A stretch of DNA of 39,768 nt. Origin: a virus. The notes beneath the pieces were generated by a model that saw only the letters and a list, made by a program, of their open reading frames with translations, did not search any database and had not been told where the DNA came from. The stretch covers positions 1 to 39,768 of IMG/VR virus record IMGVR_UViG_3300010885_054423; one strand, written 5' to 3'. How positions within the stretch are numbered: position 1 is the first letter of the stretch; each line of letters begins with the position of its first letter. Positions 27,315-39,443 of this stretch are shown one piece after another. The position numbers were made by a program, and so were the translations under genes.

Positions 27315-28247
27315 ATGACTTACGCCAGTGGTGGCCTGATACAAGCTGGCGACTACAACGGTTTCGTGGGTAACACGGCGCCGAGTTCAGCTTATGCGAG
27401 CGCAATAGCAGCAACAGACAAAGTAGCTGCACTCATAGGTGTGGGCTATGGTGATCGAGGTTACGGTCAGACCAGCACCAATGTCTCACCAACCAGCAGC
27501 GGGTTAGCAGTATCAGCTGGCCAATGGAACAATCTACGCAATGCAATGGGTACCATGAACACTCATCAAGGTTCTGGGCTAACACTGCAACCGACTGTGG
27601 CAAGCGGCGACATAATAACCTATCAATCAACCATACCAACTAATATAGCCACTCTGGATAGCAATCGTTTGCTGGCCAATGTTACCCAGATGACGGTCAG
27701 TAGCGCATTGATCAGCAGCATTAGCACGCCTTGGAGCGGTACTATCACACATGTTTTCACTGTGGATTTTGGCACAGAAAACGCGGCTAGATATTTCTTC
27801 AACAGCGGTGGACAGATACGCTGGAGCGGATCAAATACAGGAGGTAGCACCGGCAGTGCTGCGGCTTGGGCTGCATTGTTGACTGCCATGGGAACCATCA
27901 AGATGGGTGCAGACAGCACCACATACACAGGTTCTGGTGGCACCATAACCAACAACATAGGTTATTATGGATTGACTGGTTCATTGGTTCAGAACTTCAT
28001 ACATTACGGGTCAGGCAGTTATTATTACTACAGTGGTATCTATTACAGCATCAAGGTCAGCCGTGGCAATTACGTGGGTACCAACGGTGGTAATGGAAGC
28101 TTGATCAACTGCACAGTGACGTTCAGTGACGTAGCTGGTGGTTATGGCAGTGTCAACGGTACAACTAGCAGTTTCATTGATCAGTATAAAGCTGGCGGTG
28201 TGCTTACCATAGCCAGCCCAGTCTTCACCACCACCACACCTCTTTGA
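27315..28247 (+). CDS. Tail-fibre or virion structural protein
   Basis: A 310-residue Gly/Ser/Thr/Tyr-rich structural protein starting one base after the previous stop. The N-terminal part has the pattern GGLIQAGDYNGFVGNT ... GYGDRGYGQTSTNVSPTSSG ... SAGQWNNLRNAM, a module of cyanophage and marine phage structural proteins. A central segment NAARYFFNSGGQIRWS is a recurring motif in marine tail proteins. The C-terminal third holds tyrosine-rich strands (GSGSYYYYSGIYYSIKV). No enzyme motifs are visible. It is the last clearly virion-type gene before the accessory operon, from which it is separated by 61 bases. Confidence 0.62.
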   Translation: MTYASGGLIQAGDYNGFVGNTAPSSAYASAIAATDKVAALIGVGYGDRGYGQTSTNVSPTSSGLAVSAGQWNNLRNAMGTMNTHQGSGLTLQPTVASGDIITYQSTIPTNIATLDSNRLLANVTQMTVSSALISSISTPWSGTITHVFTVDFGTENAARYFFNSGGQIRWSGSNTGGSTGSAAAWAALLTAMGTIKMGADSTTYTGSGGTITNNIGYYGLTGSLVQNFIHYGSGSYYYYSGIYYSIKVSRGNYVGTNGGNGSLINCTVTFSDVAGGYGSVNGTTSSFIDQYKAGGVLTIASPVFTTTTPL

Positions 28248-28308: not shown

Positions 28309-28665
28309 ATGGACGACAGGTTACAGAAAGCTTTAGAATTTTCCAAATACCGCATAGGTTTGTTCAATCGCAAGGAAGATCTAAAACTCAAAGTAAACAA
28401 TATGTTGGTGCACAGCTACAATGGCGGCATATTCCGTTCAACGCACGAGCTCATAACCTTTGTCAAACTATTGCTTGATCAAGCGCACACCAGAGTAGTA
28501 CTGGTAGATGAGAATGGTAATCCTATTGAAGTAACTGATCTACAAGCATTCTTTGACGACATATTAAGCAAATACTTCGAAGCAACCAACTACTATCATA
28601 CAGAATACACTAATCTTCGTGCTGCTAGGTCAGTCAACAGCATATACGAGTTTATAGATGGTTGA
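28309..28665 (+). CDS. Conserved marine-phage protein of unknown function
   Basis: A 118-residue, mostly helical protein that resembles a small hypothetical protein found in many cyanophages and other marine T4-like phages: MDDRLQKALEFSKYRI at the N-terminus, SYNGGIFRSTHELITFVKLLL at 36-56, VVLVDENGNPIEVTDLQAF, and a helical end. No signal peptide, membrane segment or catalytic motif is visible. GAGGA at 28298-28302 serves the ATG at 28309. The 61 bases before it contain no late box that I can see. Its stop overlaps the next gene by eight bases, so it opens the overlapping accessory operon. Function is unknown. Confidence 0.6.
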   Translation: MDDRLQKALEFSKYRIGLFNRKEDLKLKVNNMLVHSYNGGIFRSTHELITFVKLLLDQAHTRVVLVDENGNPIEVTDLQAFFDDILSKYFEATNYYHTEYTNLRAARSVNSIYEFIDG

Positions 28666-29566
28666 GTATCCGTCTGGGTTTTACATGCCGCGCGGTTATG
28701 TTATCTATGCCCATAACAATCCGAGCATAGACTATGGGTCGATGGCGTTGTGCAATGCATTGTTGATCAAAAAACATCTCAAAGAAAATGCCGTGGCACT
28801 GATCTCTGACAAGGGCACGATAAATTATCTGGAAAATAGCTATAGTGAGTCCCTGTTACGTCAAGCATTTGATAGGATGATCGTGGACGAACAGGATACC
28901 ACGGTTGCTGCCAATCGCAGATTCTTTGATACCAGATATAGCAATTTCACCGAGCAGTATCGAAATCTGAACAGGCCGAACATCTATGATCTAACACCTT
29001 TTGAAGAGACCATAATGATCGATGCAGACTATCTAATGCTTGACAATACCTTTGATGCGGCATGGGGTTGTGTTGAAGATTTTATGTGCAATCGCAAGAC
29101 CAGAGACTTGAATCACAAGGTTAACAATTTTGGATTTGATAATCGATTCAATGAAATGAGCATCCCACTCTATTGGGCCACAGCTGTGTATTTTGCCAAG
29201 ACTGATAAGAGCAAGCTTATATTCCAACTTATGAATTTTGTCAAGGAAAACTATGCTTATTATCAATATCTCTACAGATTCAATCACAGCGGTTATTTTA
29301 GGAATGATTATGCGTTGAGCATAGCCATACACATTGCCAATAATTTCATGGAGTACGGAAGCATATCCAATCTACCAACTGATCATATCATGTTCAGCTT
29401 AGAGGACGATGAGTTCCATAGATTTGCAAACGGGCAATGTTATATCAGCTCAGAGCCGGCGCCTGGTGATTTCCATCTCCATAAAGTGATATCAAATGTG
29501 CATATCATGAACAAGCGTGCGCTGTTACGAAACAAAGATGAGATAATCAGTTATGCCACCAGCTGA
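28658..29566 (+). CDS. GT-A-like glycosyltransferase (DAD motif)
   Basis: A 302-residue protein that looks like a nucleotide-sugar transferase. It begins with a Rossmann-like strand and helix (GYVIYAHNN, then a helix ending in LIKKHL). The segment PFEETIMIDADYLM contains a DAD metal/nucleotide-sugar motif at 122-124, placed after a hydrophobic strand as in GT-A folds. The following gene has the equivalent PYEETIKLDADMLF, so the two are paralogues or close relatives. Cytoplasmic, with no membrane segment. Donor and acceptor are unknown. The ATG at 28658 overlaps the preceding stop; an alternative ATG at 28685 would drop nine residues. An inactive family member is possible. Confidence 0.65.
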   Translation: MVEYPSGFYMPRGYVIYAHNNPSIDYGSMALCNALLIKKHLKENAVALISDKGTINYLENSYSESLLRQAFDRMIVDEQDTTVAANRRFFDTRYSNFTEQYRNLNRPNIYDLTPFEETIMIDADYLMLDNTFDAAWGCVEDFMCNRKTRDLNHKVNNFGFDNRFNEMSIPLYWATAVYFAKTDKSKLIFQLMNFVKENYAYYQYLYRFNHSGYFRNDYALSIAIHIANNFMEYGSISNLPTDHIMFSLEDDEFHRFANGQCYISSEPAPGDFHLHKVISNVHIMNKRALLRNKDEIISYATS

Positions 29567-30431
29567 GATAAATCAACGCAAACGCGGATTCTTTACCATT
29601 GCACAGAATAATGATAGGTGCGATTACATACGTTTGGCCTATGGTTTGGCACTGAGCCTACGCAATAGTCAGATTAACACTCCTTATCTCAGCATAGGTG
29701 TTACACCAGGAACTGTGATATCAGAAAAATATGCGTGGGCATTTGATAACATCATAGAGATACCTTGGGGCGATCATGCCAGCGATAGCCAATGGAAGCT
29801 TGAAAATGAATGGAAGGTCGTGCACATGACCCCATACGAAGAGACCATAAAACTGGATGCAGACATGCTGTTCTTCAATGACATAGACCTTTGGTGGGAA
29901 ATGATGTCTACAAGCGAATTCGCTGTGTGTAATCGAATACTCAACTACAGAGCCGAGACTGTGGAAAATGATTTTTATCGCAAGACTTTCACTGAGAATT
30001 CATTGCCCAATATCTACACAGCACTCATGTATTTTAAAAAGACCCCGCGCACATTTGAGATATTTGAATTAGCCAAGTTCATATACTTTAACTGGCAAGC
30101 CATGTTTGAAGAGAACCTGCTGCCGCAGTACCGGCCTGATCATCCCAGCACAGATGTGATATTTGCCATAGTCTTAAAACTTTTAGACATGGATCAAGAG
30201 TTCTACACTACCAAGCAGTTGCCTACCTTTACTCACATGAAAAGCCAACTGCAGGGATGGGGCGGAGAAGATATGCTAGAAGATTGGACCAGACACATGA
30301 GCGTATTCTTTAATCCAATGCTCGAATGTAAGATAGGAAACTACCTACAGTTCTTCCCGCTACATTACCACGTTAAGACCTTCCTAACTGATGAGATGCT
30401 GGAATATTATGAACGATCAGTCAAGCGATAA
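29553..30431 (+). CDS. GT-A-like glycosyltransferase (DAD motif), second copy
   Basis: A 292-residue relative of the preceding gene, which it overlaps by 14 bases. Shared features are the opening strand GFFTIAQNNDRCDY, a helix carrying ALSLRNS, and PYEETIKLDADMLFFND with DAD at 102-104. A D-W-rich segment (FNDIDLWWEMM) and VCNRILNYRAE follow. The C-terminal region has aromatic residues (WGGEDMLEDW) and histidines (HYHVKTF) that may help bind the acceptor or metal. A soluble cytoplasmic enzyme is expected. Having two divergent copies side by side suggests successive or alternative sugar additions, which is inference. Confidence 0.66.
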   Translation: MPPAEINQRKRGFFTIAQNNDRCDYIRLAYGLALSLRNSQINTPYLSIGVTPGTVISEKYAWAFDNIIEIPWGDHASDSQWKLENEWKVVHMTPYEETIKLDADMLFFNDIDLWWEMMSTSEFAVCNRILNYRAETVENDFYRKTFTENSLPNIYTALMYFKKTPRTFEIFELAKFIYFNWQAMFEENLLPQYRPDHPSTDVIFAIVLKLLDMDQEFYTTKQLPTFTHMKSQLQGWGGEDMLEDWTRHMSVFFNPMLECKIGNYLQFFPLHYHVKTFLTDEMLEYYERSVKR

Positions 30432-30948
30432 CTGTGCCTGGGTTTGGTATGAACCAGACAGTCTGGTGCTACGGCATGTTGGTTTCAGTGAAACAGCATG
30501 GAAAGATCCACATCTGGATACGATGCCTATCGGATTCCAAACAGCTTTAGACATAGCCTCTGGTAAGAGCCGACTTTTTGAATATAAATTAGACAGGGTT
30601 GACGACGAATTAAAATTTGTCTACATAAAGAAAACCAAACCTTTTAGCAAATTCTGGCAATTGATTGAGCCATCTAGAGATATTGCCAACGCGAGATTTG
30701 ATAAGACCGACAGCGCGAGCAGTCCAATAATAATCAAGTACAAGACTGCTGACAGCATCACAGTTGACGTGATCAGCAAAGCTAAAAACATTGAGCTTTA
30801 TATAACGATGAAGAATGATCCCAACTATCTGATAGACAAGATCGATCTTTTTTCATATGCTGCTACAGCAGCTAGCACCACAGATATTACGATACCGATA
30901 TCAGTGGCTGATGATTATAGCATATATGTGAGGTACGATGCTTCGTGA
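30409..30948 (+). CDS. Unknown 179-residue protein within the glycosyltransferase operon
   Basis: I do not recognise this protein. It starts within the end of the preceding glycosyltransferase gene (23-base overlap, ATG at 30409; an ATG at 30391 in the same frame would lengthen the overlap). The N-terminal 90 residues contain aromatic-rich strands (AWVWYEPDSLVLRHVGF, LKFVYIKKTKPFSKFW). The C-terminal 75 residues alternate hydrophobic and polar residues (SITVDVISKAKNIELYITM, TDITIPISVADDYSIYVRY), which looks like a beta-sandwich. No catalytic motif or membrane segment is visible. A carbohydrate-binding or virion-associated role would suit the neighbourhood, but nothing in the sequence proves it. 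Confidence 0.5.
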   Translation: MNDQSSDNCAWVWYEPDSLVLRHVGFSETAWKDPHLDTMPIGFQTALDIASGKSRLFEYKLDRVDDELKFVYIKKTKPFSKFWQLIEPSRDIANARFDKTDSASSPIIIKYKTADSITVDVISKAKNIELYITMKNDPNYLIDKIDLFSYAATAASTTDITIPISVADDYSIYVRYDAS

Positions 30949-31843
30949 ATGCAGTGAGTTTGATTTTGTTTTCCTCAGCTATGATGAACCAAACGCAGAA
31001 ATATTATATGCCGAGCTGATAAACATCATACCTTGGGCCAAACGGGTACAAGGTGTCAAGGGTTTTGATTCAGCCCATAGGGCCTGCGCTGATATTGCAG
31101 ATACTGATTTTTTCGTGACTGTTGACGGCGATAATCGAGTAGATCCCCAATTTTTCAATGTCAAACTCAATATCAGCGAAGGACAAACTGACCATGCCTG
31201 GACCTGGGCGGGACGCAATCATGTGAATGGACTGGTATACGGTAATGGCGGTCTGAAGCTGTGGAGCAAGGCATTTGTGCGCAGCATGAACAGCCATGAG
31301 AATAGCTCAAACGGTGCTAGCAAGGTAGATTTCTGCTGGGATGCCAAATACCACGAAGTGTTTGGAACATACAGCACTAGCATGATCAACGGCAGCCCAT
31401 ATCAAGCGTTCCGCAGTGGCTATCGCGAAGGTGTAAAGATGAGTCTTGATAATGGCCACAAGGTTTTACCACAGGATTTCAACAAAAAGATATGGATCTA
31501 TAATCTTCACAAGCTATTGATATGGTGCAGTGTTGGGGCAGATGTTGAAAACGGTATCTGGAGCATCTATGGGGCCAGATTGGGTGCGTATGACTGCAAC
31601 CTCACTGACAAAGACTACACCCTTATACGCGACTATGACTGGTTTGCTGATCTGTGGAACAGTGTCAAAGATCTGGATCCAACTGCTGAATCAATCGCGG
31701 TAGGAGATAAACTGCGTCGGGGATTGGGCATAGAAATCACTGACCTCAATGAGGAGCAAAGTAGGTTCTTTAAGCGAGTTTATATCAATCCACCAAGACC
31801 GTTGGTTGGATATGATCAGATTCGCCATCTATCGGCCATGTGA
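30938..31843 (+). CDS. GT-A-like protein, family II, type A (DGD motif)
   Basis: First of four adjacent genes of one family. The 301-residue protein opens with FDFVFLSYDEPNAE, then WAKRVQGVKGFDSAHRACA, FFVTVDGDNRV with a DGD motif at 63-65, and RNHVNGLVYGNGGLKLW. The strand-DxD placement is typical of GT-A sugar transferases. Type A features shared with the gene at 33984 are the NGLxYGNGGxKxW segment, a GYREGVKMS motif, and a C-terminal extension ending in FFKRVYINPPRP. The start overlaps the preceding gene by 11 bases, with GAGG at 30930-30933 before the ATG. Substrates are unknown. An alternative is a non-catalytic member of the fold. Confidence 0.62.
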   Translation: MLRECSEFDFVFLSYDEPNAEILYAELINIIPWAKRVQGVKGFDSAHRACADIADTDFFVTVDGDNRVDPQFFNVKLNISEGQTDHAWTWAGRNHVNGLVYGNGGLKLWSKAFVRSMNSHENSSNGASKVDFCWDAKYHEVFGTYSTSMINGSPYQAFRSGYREGVKMSLDNGHKVLPQDFNKKIWIYNLHKLLIWCSVGADVENGIWSIYGARLGAYDCNLTDKDYTLIRDYDWFADLWNSVKDLDPTAESIAVGDKLRRGLGIEITDLNEEQSRFFKRVYINPPRPLVGYDQIRHLSAM

Positions 31844-33294
31844 TGTACGACATAATTTTCTGCAGCAAGCATGAAAAGAATCAAGACGCCTTTGAAAAAT
31901 TTAGGTTATCTTATCCCAATGCCAAATGGCTGCCTAACGTGACTACTATTAGCCAAGCTGTGTCTAGCTCTGTGAAAATGAGCATGACAAGCATGCATTG
32001 GTTAATCACAGATGATGTCATCATACATCCTGATATAGATCTCACATGGAAGACTGAAACCTGGGACAGACCATATCCTCACATATGGAAAACTGTTGAT
32101 CATCTGGGAAATCCTGTTGATGAATTTGCAGGTGTGTATCTCATACCAAACAGATATCAAGTATCGCCTGATGAATTAACCAAAGGTGTGTTATCAAGAT
32201 TTAAATCCATGGAAGGTGCGCAGCAGGTCCTGAAACCCTACGATGTGGTATATGCGTCTTACGATGTCCACAGAAACATTGCACATGCTGCTGAAGTGCT
32301 ATCCAATCACTGTGCCACTGAGATGCACTGGATAATAATGGATGACGTGAAATTAAAGCCAAACTGGGATCTAAACTGGCGGCCTTTTCACTGGGATAGA
32401 AAATATGTGCATGTGTGGAAGACTGCAGATACCAACGGAACTGCGCTCAATCACACTGGTGTGTATCTGGTACCTGGCAATTACCAGACAAGCGGAGATG
32501 AAATACAGCAAGGTAGCCTTAACTCCATCAAGCCAATGCCCGACACAGCATCGATTGCTGTTCCCCATGACATCTTTTTCATCAGCTACCAAGAACCCAA
32601 TGCTGCTGAGTATTTCAAGATGTTGCAGGATAGATTCCCTAGAGCACAGCATGTGCATGGCATCAAAGGCATACACAATGCTCACATGCGTTGTGCTGAG
32701 CTCAGTCAGACCAGCATGTTTTGGACTGTTGATGCTGACACACTTGTGGACAATGGTTTTGAGTTTGATTACAGACCGCCAGACTACGACCGACAATACC
32801 TACATCTGTGGCATAGCCGTAACCCTGTGAATGATCTCAGTTATGGTTGGGGAGCTATCAAACTTTGGCCCACTCAATTAGTGCGAGAGTTTAGATCCAA
32901 TTGGTTAGATTTCACCACCAGTGTTGGCAACATAAAGATCATACCTGATGTGGTTGCTACCAGCAATTATAATTGCGACAAGATCAGCACATGGCGCAGC
33001 GGATTCCGTGAGAGCGTGAAACTGTGTCATAACATTGCACAGGGTGATCATGTTGAAAGTCTGGAGAGATTAGTGGTTTGGCTAACTGTGGCCAATGAGG
33101 TAGACTATGCAAAACACAGCTTATACGGTGCCAGAGCAGGAGTGGAATTCTACATCAGCTGCAAGGAACAAGGCAATATCTCTGCTATTAAAAACATAAA
33201 CGATTTTGATTGGTTGATAGATAGATTCAATAATCGTAGGCAATCAAACTTGGAAACAGATAGATCATTGCTGTTATCAAAACTGCGAGACTGA
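31843..33294 (+). CDS. Three-module GT-A-like protein, family II, type B
   Basis: A 483-residue protein made of three related units. Unit 1 (about 2-125) and unit 2 (about 132-235) are shortened: each has a YD(I/V)(I/V) opening strand, an MHW(L/I)I segment with DDV where the full family has DxD, then WDR, (H)VWK and GVYL(I/V)P. Unit 3 (about 241-483) is a full-length type B copy with HDIFFISYQEPNAAEY, HVHGIKGIHNAHMRCA, FWTVDADTLV (DAD 297-299) and NPVNDLSYGWGAIKLWP, plus TWRSGFRESVKL. Only unit 3 keeps the expected metal motif, so units 1 and 2 may bind rather than catalyse. The ATG at 31843 overlaps the previous stop (TGATG); a GTG three bases earlier is the other option. Confidence 0.62.
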   Translation: MYDIIFCSKHEKNQDAFEKFRLSYPNAKWLPNVTTISQAVSSSVKMSMTSMHWLITDDVIIHPDIDLTWKTETWDRPYPHIWKTVDHLGNPVDEFAGVYLIPNRYQVSPDELTKGVLSRFKSMEGAQQVLKPYDVVYASYDVHRNIAHAAEVLSNHCATEMHWIIMDDVKLKPNWDLNWRPFHWDRKYVHVWKTADTNGTALNHTGVYLVPGNYQTSGDEIQQGSLNSIKPMPDTASIAVPHDIFFISYQEPNAAEYFKMLQDRFPRAQHVHGIKGIHNAHMRCAELSQTSMFWTVDADTLVDNGFEFDYRPPDYDRQYLHLWHSRNPVNDLSYGWGAIKLWPTQLVREFRSNWLDFTTSVGNIKIIPDVVATSNYNCDKISTWRSGFRESVKLCHNIAQGDHVESLERLVVWLTVANEVDYAKHSLYGARAGVEFYISCKEQGNISAIKNINDFDWLIDRFNNRRQSNLETDRSLLLSKLRD

Positions 33295-33297
33295 CAG

Positions 33298-33987
33298 ATG
33301 TATGATGTGGTTTTTATCAGCTACGAAGAATCTAATGCAGACGCCAATTGGCAGAGGTTAATATCCAAGTTTCCTGCTGCCCGGCGCTTGCATGGTATAC
33401 AAGGCATTCATCAGGCACACATTGCCGCAGCCAACCTGGTAGCCACCGATATGTTCTATGTGGTGGACGGAGATGCAGCTATAGAAGCTGATTTCCAATT
33501 TGATCATGGGGTACCTGATCATCAACTGGATCATGTACATGTGTTCAGGGCACGCAATCCTATAAATGATCTAATATACGGCTATGGGGCAATCAAACTG
33601 CTGCCCACAGCAGAGGTCAAAAGATTGCTGGACAGGGACTTTAAACCTGACATGACCAGCAGCATCAATCGCAAATACAAGATAGTGCATCAGCTGAGCA
33701 ATGTCACAGCATTCAACACTGATCCATACAACACATGGCGCAGTGCATTCAGGGAATGTGCCAAGCTGGCCAGCGGTGTAATAGATGGTCAGATCAACAC
33801 AGAGACCCAGCAAAGACTAGAAACATGGTGCACAGTGGGATCTGGGCGCGATTACGGTCATTGGTGCTTGCTGGGTGCACAAGCTGGCCGTAAGTTTGGA
33901 TTGGATAGCAGAGGTACTGATCAGCTGATGCGAATCAATGACTGGGTTTGGTTACGAGAACAATACCATGGGGGCGGGCTGTCATGA
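33298..33987 (+). CDS. GT-A-like protein, family II, type B (DGD motif)
   Basis: A 229-residue single-unit member most like unit 3 of the preceding protein: YDVVFISYEESNADANW, RLHGIQGIHQAHIAAA, FYVVDGDAAI (DGD 57-59), NPINDLIYGYGAIKLLP and TWRSAFRECAKL. It lacks the C-terminal PP-containing extension of the type A members. It begins three bases after the preceding stop, and its own stop overlaps the next start as ATGA. It probably arose by tandem duplication from the neighbouring gene. The enzymatic role is inferred from the motif and fold pattern; substrate is unknown. Confidence 0.62.
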   Translation: MYDVVFISYEESNADANWQRLISKFPAARRLHGIQGIHQAHIAAANLVATDMFYVVDGDAAIEADFQFDHGVPDHQLDHVHVFRARNPINDLIYGYGAIKLLPTAEVKRLLDRDFKPDMTSSINRKYKIVHQLSNVTAFNTDPYNTWRSAFRECAKLASGVIDGQINTETQQRLETWCTVGSGRDYGHWCLLGAQAGRKFGLDSRGTDQLMRINDWVWLREQYHGGGLS

Positions 33988-34853
33988 CTGTGTATTGGCC
34001 GCGAGATCTCGACGCGTTTTATATCAGCTATGACGAACCCAACAAGGAAGACAACTGGCTTCGAATAAAGGATATGCTACCAAATGCCAAGCGTGTGGAT
34101 GGCATCAAGGGCTTTGAAGCTGCACACAAAGCATGTGCAGAGTCCAGCCGCACAGCACGGTTCATGACCATAGACGGTGACAATTGGTTACTTGATGATG
34201 GATTCGACACACAGCTAGATGACACTGGCATAGAAGATGTGGTGTTTAGTTTTAAGAGCAAGAATGCTATCAACGGTTTAGAATACGGCAATGGTGGCAT
34301 CAAATGCTGGCGCAAAGATGTGCTGCTTGCCAGCAGCACACATGAGGGCAGCGACAGCACAGATTTCTGTTGGGCGTTGCGCTATTATCAAGTTGACACG
34401 CTTGGCAGCATCAGTGTGAACAATGCCACTGCCTATCAAGCATGGCGAGCTGGTTATCGTGAAGGCGTAAAGATGAGCTATGTGAATGGTGTTCCTATGC
34501 AGGACCCCATTGCTGATCAAAGATTGTTAGCCAACAGCAATTATAGCAAACTTAACATATGGATGAGTGTTGGTCGCGATGTAATCAACGGACCGTGGGC
34601 TATGCTAGGAGCACGACAGGGATTTTGCGACCTTTACACAAAACAGATACAAAATACCGTTATCAATGATTATGATTGGTTTGCCAAACAATGGAAACAG
34701 ATATCATACATCAATCTTGAATCAGCCTTGCAGCAATATAATCGCAGGTTGCGGGATGAATTTAATTTATTTGTTCCGGAGTTGGATCAATTGACAAGCC
34801 AATGGTTCAAGAAAACCTATCTACATCCGCCAAGATCGGGGCTAATGCTATGA
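33984..34853 (+). CDS. GT-A-like protein, family II, type A (DGD motif), second copy
   Basis: A 289-residue member closest to the gene at 30938: AFYISYDEPNKEDNW, AKRVDGIKGFEAAHKACA, FMTIDGDNWLL (DGD 64-66), NGLEYGNGGIKCW, WRAGYREGVKMSYVNG, and a C-terminal end with WFKKTYLHPPRSG. The shared C-terminal extension and the N-G-N-G-G segment mark it as type A. The ATG at 33984 overlaps the previous stop as ATGA and is preferred to an in-frame TTG at 33948, inside the upstream gene. The stop overlaps the methyltransferase-like gene, again as ATGA. Substrate is unknown. Confidence 0.62.
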   Translation: MTVYWPRDLDAFYISYDEPNKEDNWLRIKDMLPNAKRVDGIKGFEAAHKACAESSRTARFMTIDGDNWLLDDGFDTQLDDTGIEDVVFSFKSKNAINGLEYGNGGIKCWRKDVLLASSTHEGSDSTDFCWALRYYQVDTLGSISVNNATAYQAWRAGYREGVKMSYVNGVPMQDPIADQRLLANSNYSKLNIWMSVGRDVINGPWAMLGARQGFCDLYTKQIQNTVINDYDWFAKQWKQISYINLESALQQYNRRLRDEFNLFVPELDQLTSQWFKKTYLHPPRSGLML

Positions 34854-35578
34854 CTACCAATGTTTATGAAATTGTAGCACAGCACATAAACGGTGTGCGT
34901 AACATGCATCCGCATGTCAGCGATCATGACGGTTGGTTACATCGGTACATAAATCTAATTAGGCATCCGAATTATCAATTGGTAAATGGACTAGATGCCT
35001 TTTCCCAAGGGCAGCTATTAAGCAAAGCATGGTTATGTGATGCGATAAGCACGCAAAATCTAAAGCTTGGTAATATCTGGTTATTGGCAGGATGGATAGG
35101 TACTCTAAGTTACATGTTGCTGGAAAGGCGCGAACAATTTGGCATAGATAGGATACGTAGTTTTGATATCGATCCGCTGTGTGCAGATTTGGCTGATATC
35201 TATAACAAGAAAGACGTCATTGACGACTGGAGATTCAAAGCACTGACGATGGATGTGAATGACATATTTTATGATAACTTTGTGTGGCAGGGTAAAAAAT
35301 CAGACGGCACACTTAGCTTTCCAAGATCAGAAACTGCAAATACTGTGATCAATACCAGCTGCGATCACATGGGTGGCAATGCAGCTTGGTGGGATAAAAT
35401 ACCTGCAGGTAAACTGGTTATGTTGCAAAATAATGATTGGTATGAAAACGATCAGCACAATAATAGTGTGAACAATCTAGCGGAATTTGAACGCATGTAT
35501 CCTATGAATGAATTGTTGTATAAAGGTCAGCTTGAACTTCCGTTGTATACCAGGTTCATGCTTATAGGACGTAAATGA
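34850..35578 (+). CDS. Methyltransferase-like protein (class I SAM fold suspected)
   Basis: A 242-residue protein with a Rossmann-like core. IWLLAGWIGTLSYML (76-90) resembles the glycine-bearing motif I loop, and SFDIDP (104-109) the acidic end of strand 2. A later conserved block reads VINTSCDHM (167-174), WWDKIPAGKLVMLQNNDW (180-197), EFERMYP and PLYTRFMLIG at the C-terminus. This block looks like a conserved phage and bacterial family that I recall as methyltransferase-like. Motif I is atypical (AGWIG rather than the usual GxGxG), so binding of S-adenosylmethionine is uncertain. It overlaps both neighbours by ATGA junctions. In this operon it could methylate a sugar or protein, which is inference. 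Confidence 0.5.
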   Translation: MTTNVYEIVAQHINGVRNMHPHVSDHDGWLHRYINLIRHPNYQLVNGLDAFSQGQLLSKAWLCDAISTQNLKLGNIWLLAGWIGTLSYMLLERREQFGIDRIRSFDIDPLCADLADIYNKKDVIDDWRFKALTMDVNDIFYDNFVWQGKKSDGTLSFPRSETANTVINTSCDHMGGNAAWWDKIPAGKLVMLQNNDWYENDQHNNSVNNLAEFERMYPMNELLYKGQLELPLYTRFMLIGRK

Positions 35579-35814
35579 CCACTGACATATCTGCGTTAAC
35601 TGTGCGACAGTTACAGAAGGAAACTGCACGGGTGCTTGCAGCCAATGATGGATTCAATAACCACGACTTGGTTAAATTTAATAAGCTAGCACATCACGAT
35701 AGCCGAGAATGGTATTGTGCTGTGATAAAATGGTATGTTGATCAATACGGTGACCTGCCTAGCCGTGCAGGACCAGGAACCGCAGTAATTTTATTGATGG
35801 ATAATTCACAGTGA
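35575..35814 (+). CDS. 79-residue unknown protein upstream of a radical SAM gene
   Basis: I do not recognise this protein. It is small and predicted helical, with LTVRQLQKETARVLAA (8-23), a His-rich turn (NKLAHHDSREW), an aromatic helix ending in AVIKWYVDQYGDLP, and a C-terminal RAGPGTAVILLMD. It has one cysteine and no signal peptide. It overlaps the methyltransferase-like gene at ATGA and the radical SAM gene at GTGA, so it is translated as part of the operon. Possible roles include a partner or substrate of the radical SAM enzyme, but no core-peptide or recognition motif is visible. Confidence 0.5.
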   Translation: MTTDISALTVRQLQKETARVLAANDGFNNHDLVKFNKLAHHDSREWYCAVIKWYVDQYGDLPSRAGPGTAVILLMDNSQ

Positions 35815-36911
35815 TATATGACTACAGTGATATTCAAACAGTGCATCTGGAGATCACGGCCAAGTGCAATGCCAGCTGCCCGCAGTGCGGTCGCAACAAG
35901 TTTGGAGGACCTGATAACGAATTCTTGCCTCAGACAGAACTGACCTTAGGCGACATACAACGCATCATGCCAGGATCATTCGTCCAGCAACTTAAGAAGC
36001 TGTACATGTGTGGTAACTATGGTGATCCTATAGTGGCCAATGACACGCTAGAAGTGTACCAATGGCTGCGCGAGATAAACCCAGACATCAGACTGGGAAT
36101 GCATAGCAATGCCAGTGCACGCACACCTGCTTGGTGGTCAAAGCTGGGTAAGATACTGAGCAAGGATGGTGACTACGCCAAGTTTGGATTGGACGGTCTA
36201 GCCGATACCAACCACATCTATAGACGCGGTACTAATTGGGACAAGATCATAGAGAACGTACAGGCCTTCATTGATGCAGGGGGACTTGCCCAATGGGAAT
36301 TCATTGTGTTCAAGCACAATGAACATCAGGTAGAGGCTGCTAGGGCTCTCAGCGAGCAGATGGGATTCACGCAATTTCGTACCAAGAAGACAGGACGATT
36401 CTTCAGCAACACCAAGCTGCAAGGCAAGGACAGCCAAGAAGTATGGAGCCGCAATGGTGAGGTTGAGTATCACATAGAGAAAGCAGAAAGAGCTGAATAC
36501 CAAAATGACAGCCTCGCGAACGAACAGTCTCTCATCGATCAGTTTGGCAGCATGCAAAACTATGTGGACCAAACCTGCATAAAGTGCAAGGTATCCGATG
36601 AAAAGAGCTTGTACATTTCTGCAGAGGGTCTGGCTTTTCCTTGCTGCTGGACAGCTAACCAACTGTATGTATGGTATTGGCCCCACAAACACAGCGAGAT
36701 TTGGACGCTGCTGGACCACGATATCAACAACGTTAGTGCGCTTGTAAACCCGCTGGAATCCATAATAAAAGGACCATATTTCAACAAGATAGCTGACAGC
36801 TGGTCCAAGCCACGCATCATTGATGGCAAGCTGCGTGTCTGCGCTAAAACCTGCGGTACTGGGTTCGATCAATTTGCCAGCCAGTTCACGGGAACCGTAA
36901 ATAAATCATGA
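35811..36911 (+). CDS. Radical SAM protein with C-terminal SPASM-like cysteines
   Basis: A 366-residue radical SAM enzyme. The [4Fe-4S] motif CNASCPQC (C19, C23, C26) sits right after the first strand (VHLEITAKC). It is followed by LYMCGNYGDP, the GNYGDP being a variant of the GGE-type S-adenosylmethionine binding strand, and by FGLDGL. The C-terminal part holds further cysteines: CIKC (256-259), CC within GLAFPCCW (278-279), and C344 and C348 near the end (RVCAKTCG). This resembles a SPASM/twitch auxiliary cluster. The start is GTG at 35811, which overlaps the preceding stop (GTGA); no closer in-frame ATG exists. Such enzymes modify peptides, proteins or sugars. The substrate here is unknown. 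Confidence 0.82.
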   Translation: MIYDYSDIQTVHLEITAKCNASCPQCGRNKFGGPDNEFLPQTELTLGDIQRIMPGSFVQQLKKLYMCGNYGDPIVANDTLEVYQWLREINPDIRLGMHSNASARTPAWWSKLGKILSKDGDYAKFGLDGLADTNHIYRRGTNWDKIIENVQAFIDAGGLAQWEFIVFKHNEHQVEAARALSEQMGFTQFRTKKTGRFFSNTKLQGKDSQEVWSRNGEVEYHIEKAERAEYQNDSLANEQSLIDQFGSMQNYVDQTCIKCKVSDEKSLYISAEGLAFPCCWTANQLYVWYWPHKHSEIWTLLDHDINNVSALVNPLESIIKGPYFNKIADSWSKPRIIDGKLRVCAKTCGTGFDQFASQFTGTVNKS

Positions 36912-38308
36912 CCCATAATTTGCCAAGTCCAACATTCTGTGCTCTACCCTGGGTGCATCTCAGCAGCCGTCCGGATGGTGCAATGAGGGTGTGCTGTACG
37001 GCCAATGCCAGCAGCGTGCAAGATCCAGACAGCACCAAGAAGAGCGGCGGCGGCCAGATTGGAGTGCTGCGCACAGCCGACGGCACGCCGGCTAACCTCA
37101 ATAACAGCACACTAATGGAGGCATGGAACAACGACTACATGCGCAATGTTCGCAAGATGATGTTGCGCGGAGAGAAACCACCCAGCTGCCTCAAGTGCTA
37201 CAAGGAAGAAGAAGTGGGTGTGCAGAGCAAGCGCAACTGGGAGACTGCCTATTGGATTGATCAACTGGGATTGGACGACATCATAGGCGACACCACAGAT
37301 GATGGCGCAGTGAGCCCGCGCATACGCTATCTGGATCTGCGGCTGGGCAGCAAGTGCCAGCTGGCTTGCGTGATGTGCAGTCCGCATGACAGCAGCGGCT
37401 GGGTCAAAGAGTGGAACGAGATCTATCCCAAGATAGAAAATGCCAGGCTCAAGGAGAGCTGGAACTGGGCTGACAAGGGCAAGCAACACGGTGCCAGCTA
37501 CAATTGGCACATGAATAATCCAGAGTTTTGGTCTCAGCTCTATGACCAAATACCGCACATGAAACAGCTGTATTTTGCTGGTGGCGAAAGCACCATCATT
37601 GAAGAACACTACACCTTGCTGGAAGAAGTGATACGGCGCGGACATGCTGGCGATATAGAGCTGCGCTACAACAGCAACGCGGTTGAGCTTCCACAAAGAC
37701 TGTTTGATATATGGAGCCACTTCCGCAGAGTCAAGTTCCACTTCAGCATAGACAGCTTTGGCGACAAGAATGATTACATACGCTATCCCAGCCAATGGGA
37801 CAAGCTGGTGGAGCACATGCATCTGTTAGACGACACTCCGGATCATGTGGTCGTGACCACTGCTGTGACTGTGATGGCACTGAACATCTATTACATTCCA
37901 GACATGATCAAGTGGAAGCTCAGTCAAAACTTCAAGAAGTTAAACGCATGGCCCAATGGCGCAGGCATGATCAACTGGCATCTGGCCTATTGGCCGCCTC
38001 AGCTCAATGTCAAGGTATTGCCTGCATGGGCAAAACAAGCTGTGCGTGAGAAATTCGAAGAATTGTTTGTTTGGCTAGAAGATAACTGGGAATCTTGCAC
38101 TGGTATCCGGCAGACTGATATTGACAAGGAGGCCTTCCTAGCAGCAGGATATGGTATAAAGAGATTGAGGAGCTTGTTGGATTTCATGGACAAGGAAGAT
38201 TGGAGCCAAAGATTACCAGAGCTCAAAGAGTGGATAGAATTGATAGATAAGCAGCGCAATTTAAAGTTCACCAAGACATTCCCAGAGATGTCTAGAATAT
38301 TAGATTAA
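36908..38308 (+). CDS. Twitch-domain radical SAM protein
   Basis: A 466-residue radical SAM protein in which the auxiliary cysteine region comes first: FCALPWVHLS (C11), GAMRVCCTA (C29, C30), a MEAWNNDYMRNVRKMM helix, and CLKCYKEEE (C94, C97). The core follows, with YLDLRLGSKC and C150, C154, C157 in CQLACVMC. FAGGEST (GGE-type motif) and HFSIDSFG mark later strands of the barrel. The arrangement is that of twitch-domain radical SAM proteins found in marine phages and bacteria. The ATG at 36908 overlaps the preceding radical SAM gene as ATGA, so the two are translationally coupled. Substrate is unknown; action on a protein, peptide or glycan is inferred from the family. Confidence 0.82.
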   Translation: MTHNLPSPTFCALPWVHLSSRPDGAMRVCCTANASSVQDPDSTKKSGGGQIGVLRTADGTPANLNNSTLMEAWNNDYMRNVRKMMLRGEKPPSCLKCYKEEEVGVQSKRNWETAYWIDQLGLDDIIGDTTDDGAVSPRIRYLDLRLGSKCQLACVMCSPHDSSGWVKEWNEIYPKIENARLKESWNWADKGKQHGASYNWHMNNPEFWSQLYDQIPHMKQLYFAGGESTIIEEHYTLLEEVIRRGHAGDIELRYNSNAVELPQRLFDIWSHFRRVKFHFSIDSFGDKNDYIRYPSQWDKLVEHMHLLDDTPDHVVVTTAVTVMALNIYYIPDMIKWKLSQNFKKLNAWPNGAGMINWHLAYWPPQLNVKVLPAWAKQAVREKFEELFVWLEDNWESCTGIRQTDIDKEAFLAAGYGIKRLRSLLDFMDKEDWSQRLPELKEWIELIDKQRNLKFTKTFPEMSRILD

Positions 38309-38780: not shown

Positions 38781-39443
38781 ATGGCTATGACAGTAAAACT
38801 CATAGCCATATCAAAACCTACTATTGAAGAATGCAGCTCAGCTGAAGAGCTAGTAGCATACTGTGCCAGGGTTTCTAACCCTGCCAATCAAAACAATCAC
38901 AGTACCAGCGCTAAGCTGATAAGATACCTCATCAACAACGCTCATTGGTCTCCCTTGGAGATGGTCCACATGACCATGGAGATCAACACCACACGCGATA
39001 TAGCAAGACAGATACTGCGGCATCGCAGCTTTAGCTTCCAAGAATTCAGTCAACGCTATGCCGATCCTACCAAAGCATTGGGGTTTGTTACCAGAGAGGC
39101 ACGCTTACAGGATGCCAAAAATCGGCAAAACAGCATTGAGACTGATGATCAAGATATTGAATCTCTGTGGCGGAGCATACAAGAACTGATCATCGACGAT
39201 GCCTACAGGCAGTATACCAAGGCCATCAACATGGGTATTGCCAAGGAACAAGCCCGTGCACTGCTGCCAGAGGGACTCACAGAGAGCCGGATTTACATGG
39301 CTGGCAGCCTGCGCAGCTGGGTACACTATTGTGATCTTCGCAGAGCTAACGGTACACAAAAAGAACATCGCCAGATAGCTGATGCTTGCTGGCAAATAGT
39401 GATAGAACAATTCCCAATGCTAGGAGACACAGATGACGCCTAA
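38781..39443 (+). CDS. thyX: Flavin-dependent thymidylate synthase ThyX
   Basis: Makes dTMP from dUMP with methylenetetrahydrofolate, FAD and NADPH, feeding phage DNA synthesis. The 220-residue protein has the ThyX signature RHRSFSFQEFSQR at 80-92, fitting RHRxxSxxxxSxR with S85, S90 and R92. Other family features are SPLEMVHMT near 57-65 and a C-terminal LPEGLTESRIYMAGSLRSW. Length is in the usual range (about 210-260). ATGs at 38781 and 38787 are both possible starts, and no strong ribosome binding site is seen. The signature fits a normal thymidylate synthase rather than a hydroxymethylase. The stop overlaps the next gene by 11 bases. Confidence 0.96.
   Translation: MAMTVKLIAISKPTIEECSSAEELVAYCARVSNPANQNNHSTSAKLIRYLINNAHWSPLEMVHMTMEINTTRDIARQILRHRSFSFQEFSQRYADPTKALGFVTREARLQDAKNRQNSIETDDQDIESLWRSIQELIIDDAYRQYTKAINMGIAKEQARALLPEGLTESRIYMAGSLRSWVHYCDLRRANGTQKEHRQIADACWQIVIEQFPMLGDTDDA

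Follow-up and report, generated by a model that had tools for sequence, protein, structure and literature searches.

Pelagimyophages carry, next to their fibre genes, a hypervariable island (HRC) with cassettes of GT8-type glycosyltransferases (GTs) and radical S-adenosylmethionine (SAM) enzymes, which has been read as serving O-chain modification (PMC7029224), while the GT clusters of jumbo phages have been read as a means of surface polysaccharide diversification (PMC7824862). Glycosylation of the virion itself is established in mycobacteriophages, with glycans on capsid and tail proteins (work cited in PMC12619734), and DNA modification is a known general role of phage GTs (PMC7029224). Here, we analyzed a stretch of 39,768 bases from an IMG/VR virus record (IMGVR_UViG_3300010885_054423, hereafter the window), in which a cluster of 12 genes on the + strand (28309-38308; f, A1, A2, X, B1-B4, MT, U79, rS1, and rS2) adjoins on its 5' side a fibre-type gene, GY. 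The core GY-f-A1-A2-X-B1 was found fixed in more than 100 distinct phage loci, several of them on contigs of 200-518 kb, and the most likely role of the cluster is to place unusual sugars on the fibres of the phage itself or on the surface of its host.

Gene order and the two modules of the cluster

Scans anchored on B1, family A (A1 and A2), MT, and rS1 returned 256 loci, some of which overlap on the same contigs; all gene-order counts refer to distinct protein pairs. An A gene followed f in 110 of 112 pairs and a B gene followed X in 100 of 101, B preceded MT in 102 pairs, MT preceded U79 in 55, and U79 preceded a radical SAM gene in 45, mostly with overlapping ends. Of the 117 distinct f genes, 103 had a GY-family gene as their immediate 5' neighbour. 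Since the same order recurs in more than 100 distinct loci, it exceeds what chance would give. When loci were chosen by GY only, without regard to GTs, f and A were present together in 67 of 80 and A and B in 60. A first-pass annotation, made from the window alone, had proposed a new modification system and named beforehand, as a finding that would speak against it, families that do not co-occur elsewhere; the families do co-occur in other loci, also in those chosen by GY only.

The same annotation had suggested one pathway, but the cluster is made of two modules, the core and a second one (module 2: B3-MT-U79-rS1-rS2), which is likewise conserved in phages. The two were found both together and apart, with module 2 lacking the core in many phage loci. 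Where at least 8 kb lay downstream of a core (48 loci), radical SAM genes were present in 41, which indicates that tailoring usually accompanies the core, while MT was present in 14 and neither in 2. A Pfam scan of the island genes gave nucleoside diphosphate (NDP)-sugar dehydratases/dehydrogenases, NeuB, cytidylyltransferase, carbamoyltransferase, and 2-oxoglutarate (2OG)-oxygenase families, which point to donor synthesis, and there was no flippase or polymerase family among the top 25 Pfam families listed. Core proteins were also searched with tblastn (B1 and A2 of the window, and A2, X, GY, and f of its relatives) against 50,697 phage records, where no match was found; no core protein is detectable in sequenced phage isolates, and no cultured phage is known to carry the core.

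In the window, 10 of the 11 cluster junctions overlap, mostly by 4 bases (from f to rS2: -8, -14, -41, -11, -4, +3, -4, -4, -4, -4, -4), as the first-pass annotation had observed. Its six GT-like genes of two families (A1 and A2; B1-B4), methyltransferase-like and 79-residue open reading frames (ORFs), and two radical SAM proteins with auxiliary cysteines are all present, X having been left out of its list. Its placement of the cluster after fibre genes is correct as regards GY, directly 5', and has to be amended for the 118-residue gene at 28309 (f), which belongs to the cluster and is not recognizable as a fibre itself. The label "late operon" found no support: the window contains no TATAAATA in a search for T4 late promoters, and neither promoter-like matches (28 vs. 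29.1 +/- 5.1 in shuffles) nor terminator-like ones (15 vs. 11.1 +/- 3.5) were in clear excess.

Protein families and genomic setting

Features are listed in Table 1. A1 and A2 are 25% identical (E 1e-12). In a profile search of solved structures, positions 5-121 of family A matched glycogenin-1, and D102, D104, and H271 of A2 were invariant across 20 sequences, i.e., the DxD and C-terminal His metal ligands are kept. Family A aligns with the N-terminal, nucleotide-binding half of glycogenin/GT8 enzymes and retains the DxD, but the alignment spans only ~115 residues and neither protein matched a Pfam GT family at E up to 1, for which reason we call the family GT8-like and not GT8.

Table 1. Coordinates of GY and the 12 cluster genes, numbered from the first base of the window
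Feature	Position	Strand	Description	Basis
GY	27315..28247	+	Fibre-type protein, 310 residues, candidate acceptor	Immediate 5' neighbour of cluster
f	28309..28665	+	118-residue protein, first core gene	No significant family match; conserved position before A
A1	28658..29566	+	Glycogenin/GT8-like GT-A glycosyltransferase	Family profile vs. glycogenin E 1.7e-7; invariant DxD + His
A2	29553..30431	+	Glycogenin/GT8-like GT-A glycosyltransferase	As A1; also phrog_1903 (function unknown) E 3.9e-6
X	30391..30948	+	185-residue all-beta protein, two small domains	Conserved location between A2 and B1
B1	30938..31843	+	Core member of GT-A-like family B	AlphaFold2 (AF2) model, Foldseek, invariant DGD motif
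B2	31840..33294	+	Family B; two partial N-terminal repeats and one full domain	BLASTP repeats, translation
B3	33298..33987	+	Short family B protein that opens module 2	Precedes MT in conserved pairs
B4	33984..34853	+	Family B, nearest to B1	39% identity to B1, E 3.5e-67
MT	34850..35578	+	Probable class I SAM methyltransferase	Weak family matches of relatives; conserved in phages and Bdellovibrionota
U79	35575..35814	+	79-residue protein, strongly conserved new family	Alignment of 33 sequences
rS1	35811..36911	+	Radical SAM protein with auxiliary cysteines	CxxxCxxC; Radical_SAM 4.2e-6
rS2	36908..38308	+	N-terminal-twitch radical SAM protein	NF033640 416 bits; CxxxCxxC

The four B proteins share 29-39% identity (E 1e-25 to 1e-67) and had no match in Pfam, NCBIfam, or PHROGs, nor any relevant sequence match to a solved GT. 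With the AF2 model of B1 (predicted local distance difference test, pLDDT, 88), the named Foldseek matches in the PDB were GT-A enzymes or nucleotidyltransferases, all weak (best E 6.9e-4, template modelling (TM) score ~0.3), the best of them being the peptide S-glycosyltransferase SunS, one weak match among many to GT-A enzymes. In a viral structure library, the top two were uncharacterised phage proteins (E 2e-15 and 6e-15), and the named matches, from E 8e-5, were glycosyltransferases. D63 and D65 of the DGD motif of B1 are invariant. Judged by its predicted structure, family B has a divergent GT-A fold and is new to the three libraries. The partial repeats of B2 (31840-32570) are truncated, with DDV replacing DGD, and B3 is 55.5% identical to a copy on a contig of a metagenome-assembled genome (MAG). 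Elsewhere, GT1 and GT2 genes flank a family B gene in three Photorhabdus loci, with an ABC transporter nearby, possibly an uncharacterised biosynthetic cluster, and a family B domain is contained in an ORF of ~1,220 residues in a Bdellovibrionota genome (L308:9395-13054), an apparent fusion.

U79, f, X, and GY belong to families with no recognized relative. GY had none in Pfam, PHROGs, or the PDB, and profile searches of the PDB gave nothing convincing for GY or f. No significant fold match was found by Foldseek with the model of X (pLDDT 76.7), for which a start at 30409 is also possible. The mean column identity of U79 is 66%, with conservation reaching the C-terminus; its PDB profile matches of low E were designed repeat proteins, no stretch passed alone, and they were taken as chance.

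MT is probably a methyltransferase: its relatives match weakly to HcgC (0.0016), Methyltransf_25 (0.035), and thermospermine synthase (0.09), the window protein itself to none, and of its possible starts (the frame is open from 34802) 34850, with an ATGA overlap, is the likelier. The CxxxCxxC motif of rS1 (CNASCPQC) is at residue 19, with further cysteines at 256, 259, 278, 279, 344, and 348; the protein scores just below the Pfam Radical_SAM cut-off (27.5 vs. 29.5) and is not a member of NF033640 (41 bits, cut-off 170). By contrast, rS2 (CQLACVMC at residue 150; further cysteines at 11, 29, 30, 94, and 97) exceeds that cut-off and is a member of N_Twi_rSAM (NF033640), passes SPASM (25.4 vs. 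21.5), and stays below Radical_SAM (23.4). The N-twitch radical SAM family has 20 matches on a 518 kb phage contig related to the window, eight of them in an array within 16 kb beside carbamoyltransferase-, SGNH hydrolase-, and UDP-sugar dehydrogenase-like genes.

Apart from the cluster, the window encodes SbcC/SbcD-like genes, a late sigma factor, baseplate wedge and hub proteins, and a structural protein of 3705 residues. Three IMG/VR contigs with the same cluster (518, 216, and 103 kb) encode baseplate wedge proteins 74-86% identical to that of the window, and the nearest isolates by this protein belong to the jumbo phages, for example Atu_ph07, GAP32, and RaK2 (~40% identity); because its relatives are large contigs and jumbo phages, the window is probably part of the genome of a large T4-like virus. 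Assignment of the 3705-residue protein as VrlC was unsupported, as there was no match to the compared part of VrlC from Pelagibacter phage Mosig and PHROGs has it as a virion structural protein. A ThyX gene (38781-39443; Thy1, E 9e-45) lies downstream of the cluster.

Relatives on Bdellovibrionota chromosomes and in an isolate

Of 192 Bdellovibrionota genomes, 12 carried B, 17 carried MT, and 12 had a close relative of rS2. The 12 genomes with B had MT in 11 cases and rS2 in 10 (Fisher p ~1e-13, the related genomes not being independent), and in a comparison of seven genomes the nearest B and MT were separated by 0.8-3 kb, in some cases on contigs 1-2 Mb long. Compared with the window, the proteins are 58% (rS2) and 54% (rS1) identical. 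The chromosomal locus thus has the same clustered families B, MT, rS1, and rS2, and differs by its third radical SAM type, by GT2 genes in places, and by the lack of A1, A2, f, X, and GY, one MAG excepted; U79 was not seen in five of these loci (L262, L268, L270, L271, and L279). As a single genome of the 192, a MAG, contains family A, the core is phage-specific. At some loci, B, MT, rS1, and rS2 have as neighbours GT2 genes and a protein of the flavin amine-oxidoreductase type, presumably UDP-galactopyranose-mutase-like. On a contig of the one MAG with family A, from Bdellovibrionales (L312/L259), chromosomal genes, which we take to be RNase HII, TrmD, and PheT, run into rS2, B2, GY, f, A1, A2, X, and B1, an arrangement that may be a prophage, a domesticated cluster, or an assembly artefact.

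In the isolate Mosig, distant homologues of MT and rS1 accompany genes for a sugar aminotransferase and a carbamoyltransferase, with no A, B, f, X, or GY in its 40-kb HRC stretch.

Candidate functions and comparison with described systems

The strictest linkage in the data is that to the fibre gene, and for this reason we favour, tentatively and at somewhat less than even confidence, a fibre-coupled glycosylation whose target is a virion protein, GY being the likeliest, and for which module 2 would supply or tailor an unusual sugar. From gene order, family relationships, folds, and motifs we infer the acceptor, donor sugars, chemistry, and benefit as follows. Cytoplasmic A1, A2, and B1, encoded together with GY, f, and X, would synthesise a short glycan on a protein of the virion, most probably the fibre GY, before the tail is assembled, while module 2, here with B2-B4, MT, U79, rS1, and rS2, would make or tailor an unusual sugar, which MT may methylate and the radical SAM enzymes may rearrange, dehydrate, epimerise, or oxidise; the decoration could alter receptor binding or shield the fibre. 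None of the cluster proteins in the window has a transmembrane-like segment, which, together with the lack of a flippase or polymerase family among those listed, fits a soluble acceptor. Several points weigh against fibre glycosylation: some GY genes found in the GY-only scan stand without GTs, another gene lies directly 5' of f in 11 of the 117 cases, no acceptor site was identified, neither f nor X has an assigned role, and the chromosomal relatives of module 2 lie partly amid polysaccharide-type genes, which points to surface glycans. A more specific version, in which large aquatic phages possess a machine dedicated to fibre glycosylation that uses a new GT-A family to add a radical-SAM-tailored, methylated sugar to GY as its cognate fibre, with tailoring enzymes common to Bdellovibrionota, is rather doubtful.

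Modification of host-surface glycans, by which the enzymes would alter the O-chain or capsule during infection and so block superinfection or aid progeny release, is somewhat unlikely. The first-pass annotation had named both virion proteins and host surface glycans as targets, and both are still candidates. Host-glycan change is how comparable islands have been interpreted in the literature (PMC7029224; PMC7824862), and the NDP-sugar and carbamoylation genes of the islands, the company of the Mosig homologues, and the chromosomal B, MT, rS1, and rS2 beside GT2 and flavin amine-oxidoreductase-type genes all argue for it, but the core is strictly linked with a fibre gene and is phage-specific, and the window set includes no membrane protein. 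The two modules could also have two functions, the core glycosylating the fibre and B3-MT-U79-rS1-rS2 being a separate cellular-type pathway for host glycans or a small metabolite. The occurrence of module 2 without the core, in phages and on chromosomes, and the two core loci lacking both MT and radical SAM genes are consistent with this division; however, overlapping genes join the modules in the window, B paralogues are common to both, and radical SAM genes lie near most cores, so we regard it as improbable. Even less probable is a peptide natural-product pathway resembling those for ribosomally synthesised and post-translationally modified peptides, for which a small ORF adjoining radical SAM, MT, and GT genes and the SunS match could be cited: that match is weak and one of many, U79 is absent from many loci having the enzymes, and its role as precursor peptide was rejected given its full-length conservation without a variable core. 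DNA hypermodification, a general role of phage GTs (PMC7029224), is the least credible, as the genes sit behind fibre genes, B, MT, and rS relatives are found on bacterial chromosomes, and the family library scans gave no DNA-glycosyltransferase match.

The exact gene set was not found described in a literature search outside which most subscription journals lay. Islands of this kind are already published (PMC7029224; PMC7824862), which qualifies the novelty suggested by the first-pass annotation; we came across no account of the exact core GY-f-A1-A2-X-B1, of families B and U79, or of the Bdellovibrionota counterpart. Mycobacteriophage virion glycosylation is phage-encoded, as proposed here, but belongs to other phages and genes, with the acceptor here being a candidate (PMC12619734). 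The jumbo-phage clusters share with the window paralogous GTs and sugar-nucleotide genes in large phages, whereas the fibre-GY core was not found in the available part of their description, and the term "Radical SAM" is absent from that paper (PMC7824862). The HRC of pelagimyophages and cyanomyophages resembles the cluster in being an island that follows baseplate and fibre genes in aquatic phages of the T4-like type (PMC7029224); in pelagimyophages it lies between VrlC and gp14, whereas in the window no VrlC match to the compared Mosig part was seen and gp14 lies outside. Against this background, the window adds a fixed, previously unannotated core that ties a fibre protein to GTs in many large aquatic phages and names GY as a concrete acceptor candidate, and it connects the many radical SAM genes found in large phages with a locus on bacterial chromosomes that may offer easier access to their chemistry.

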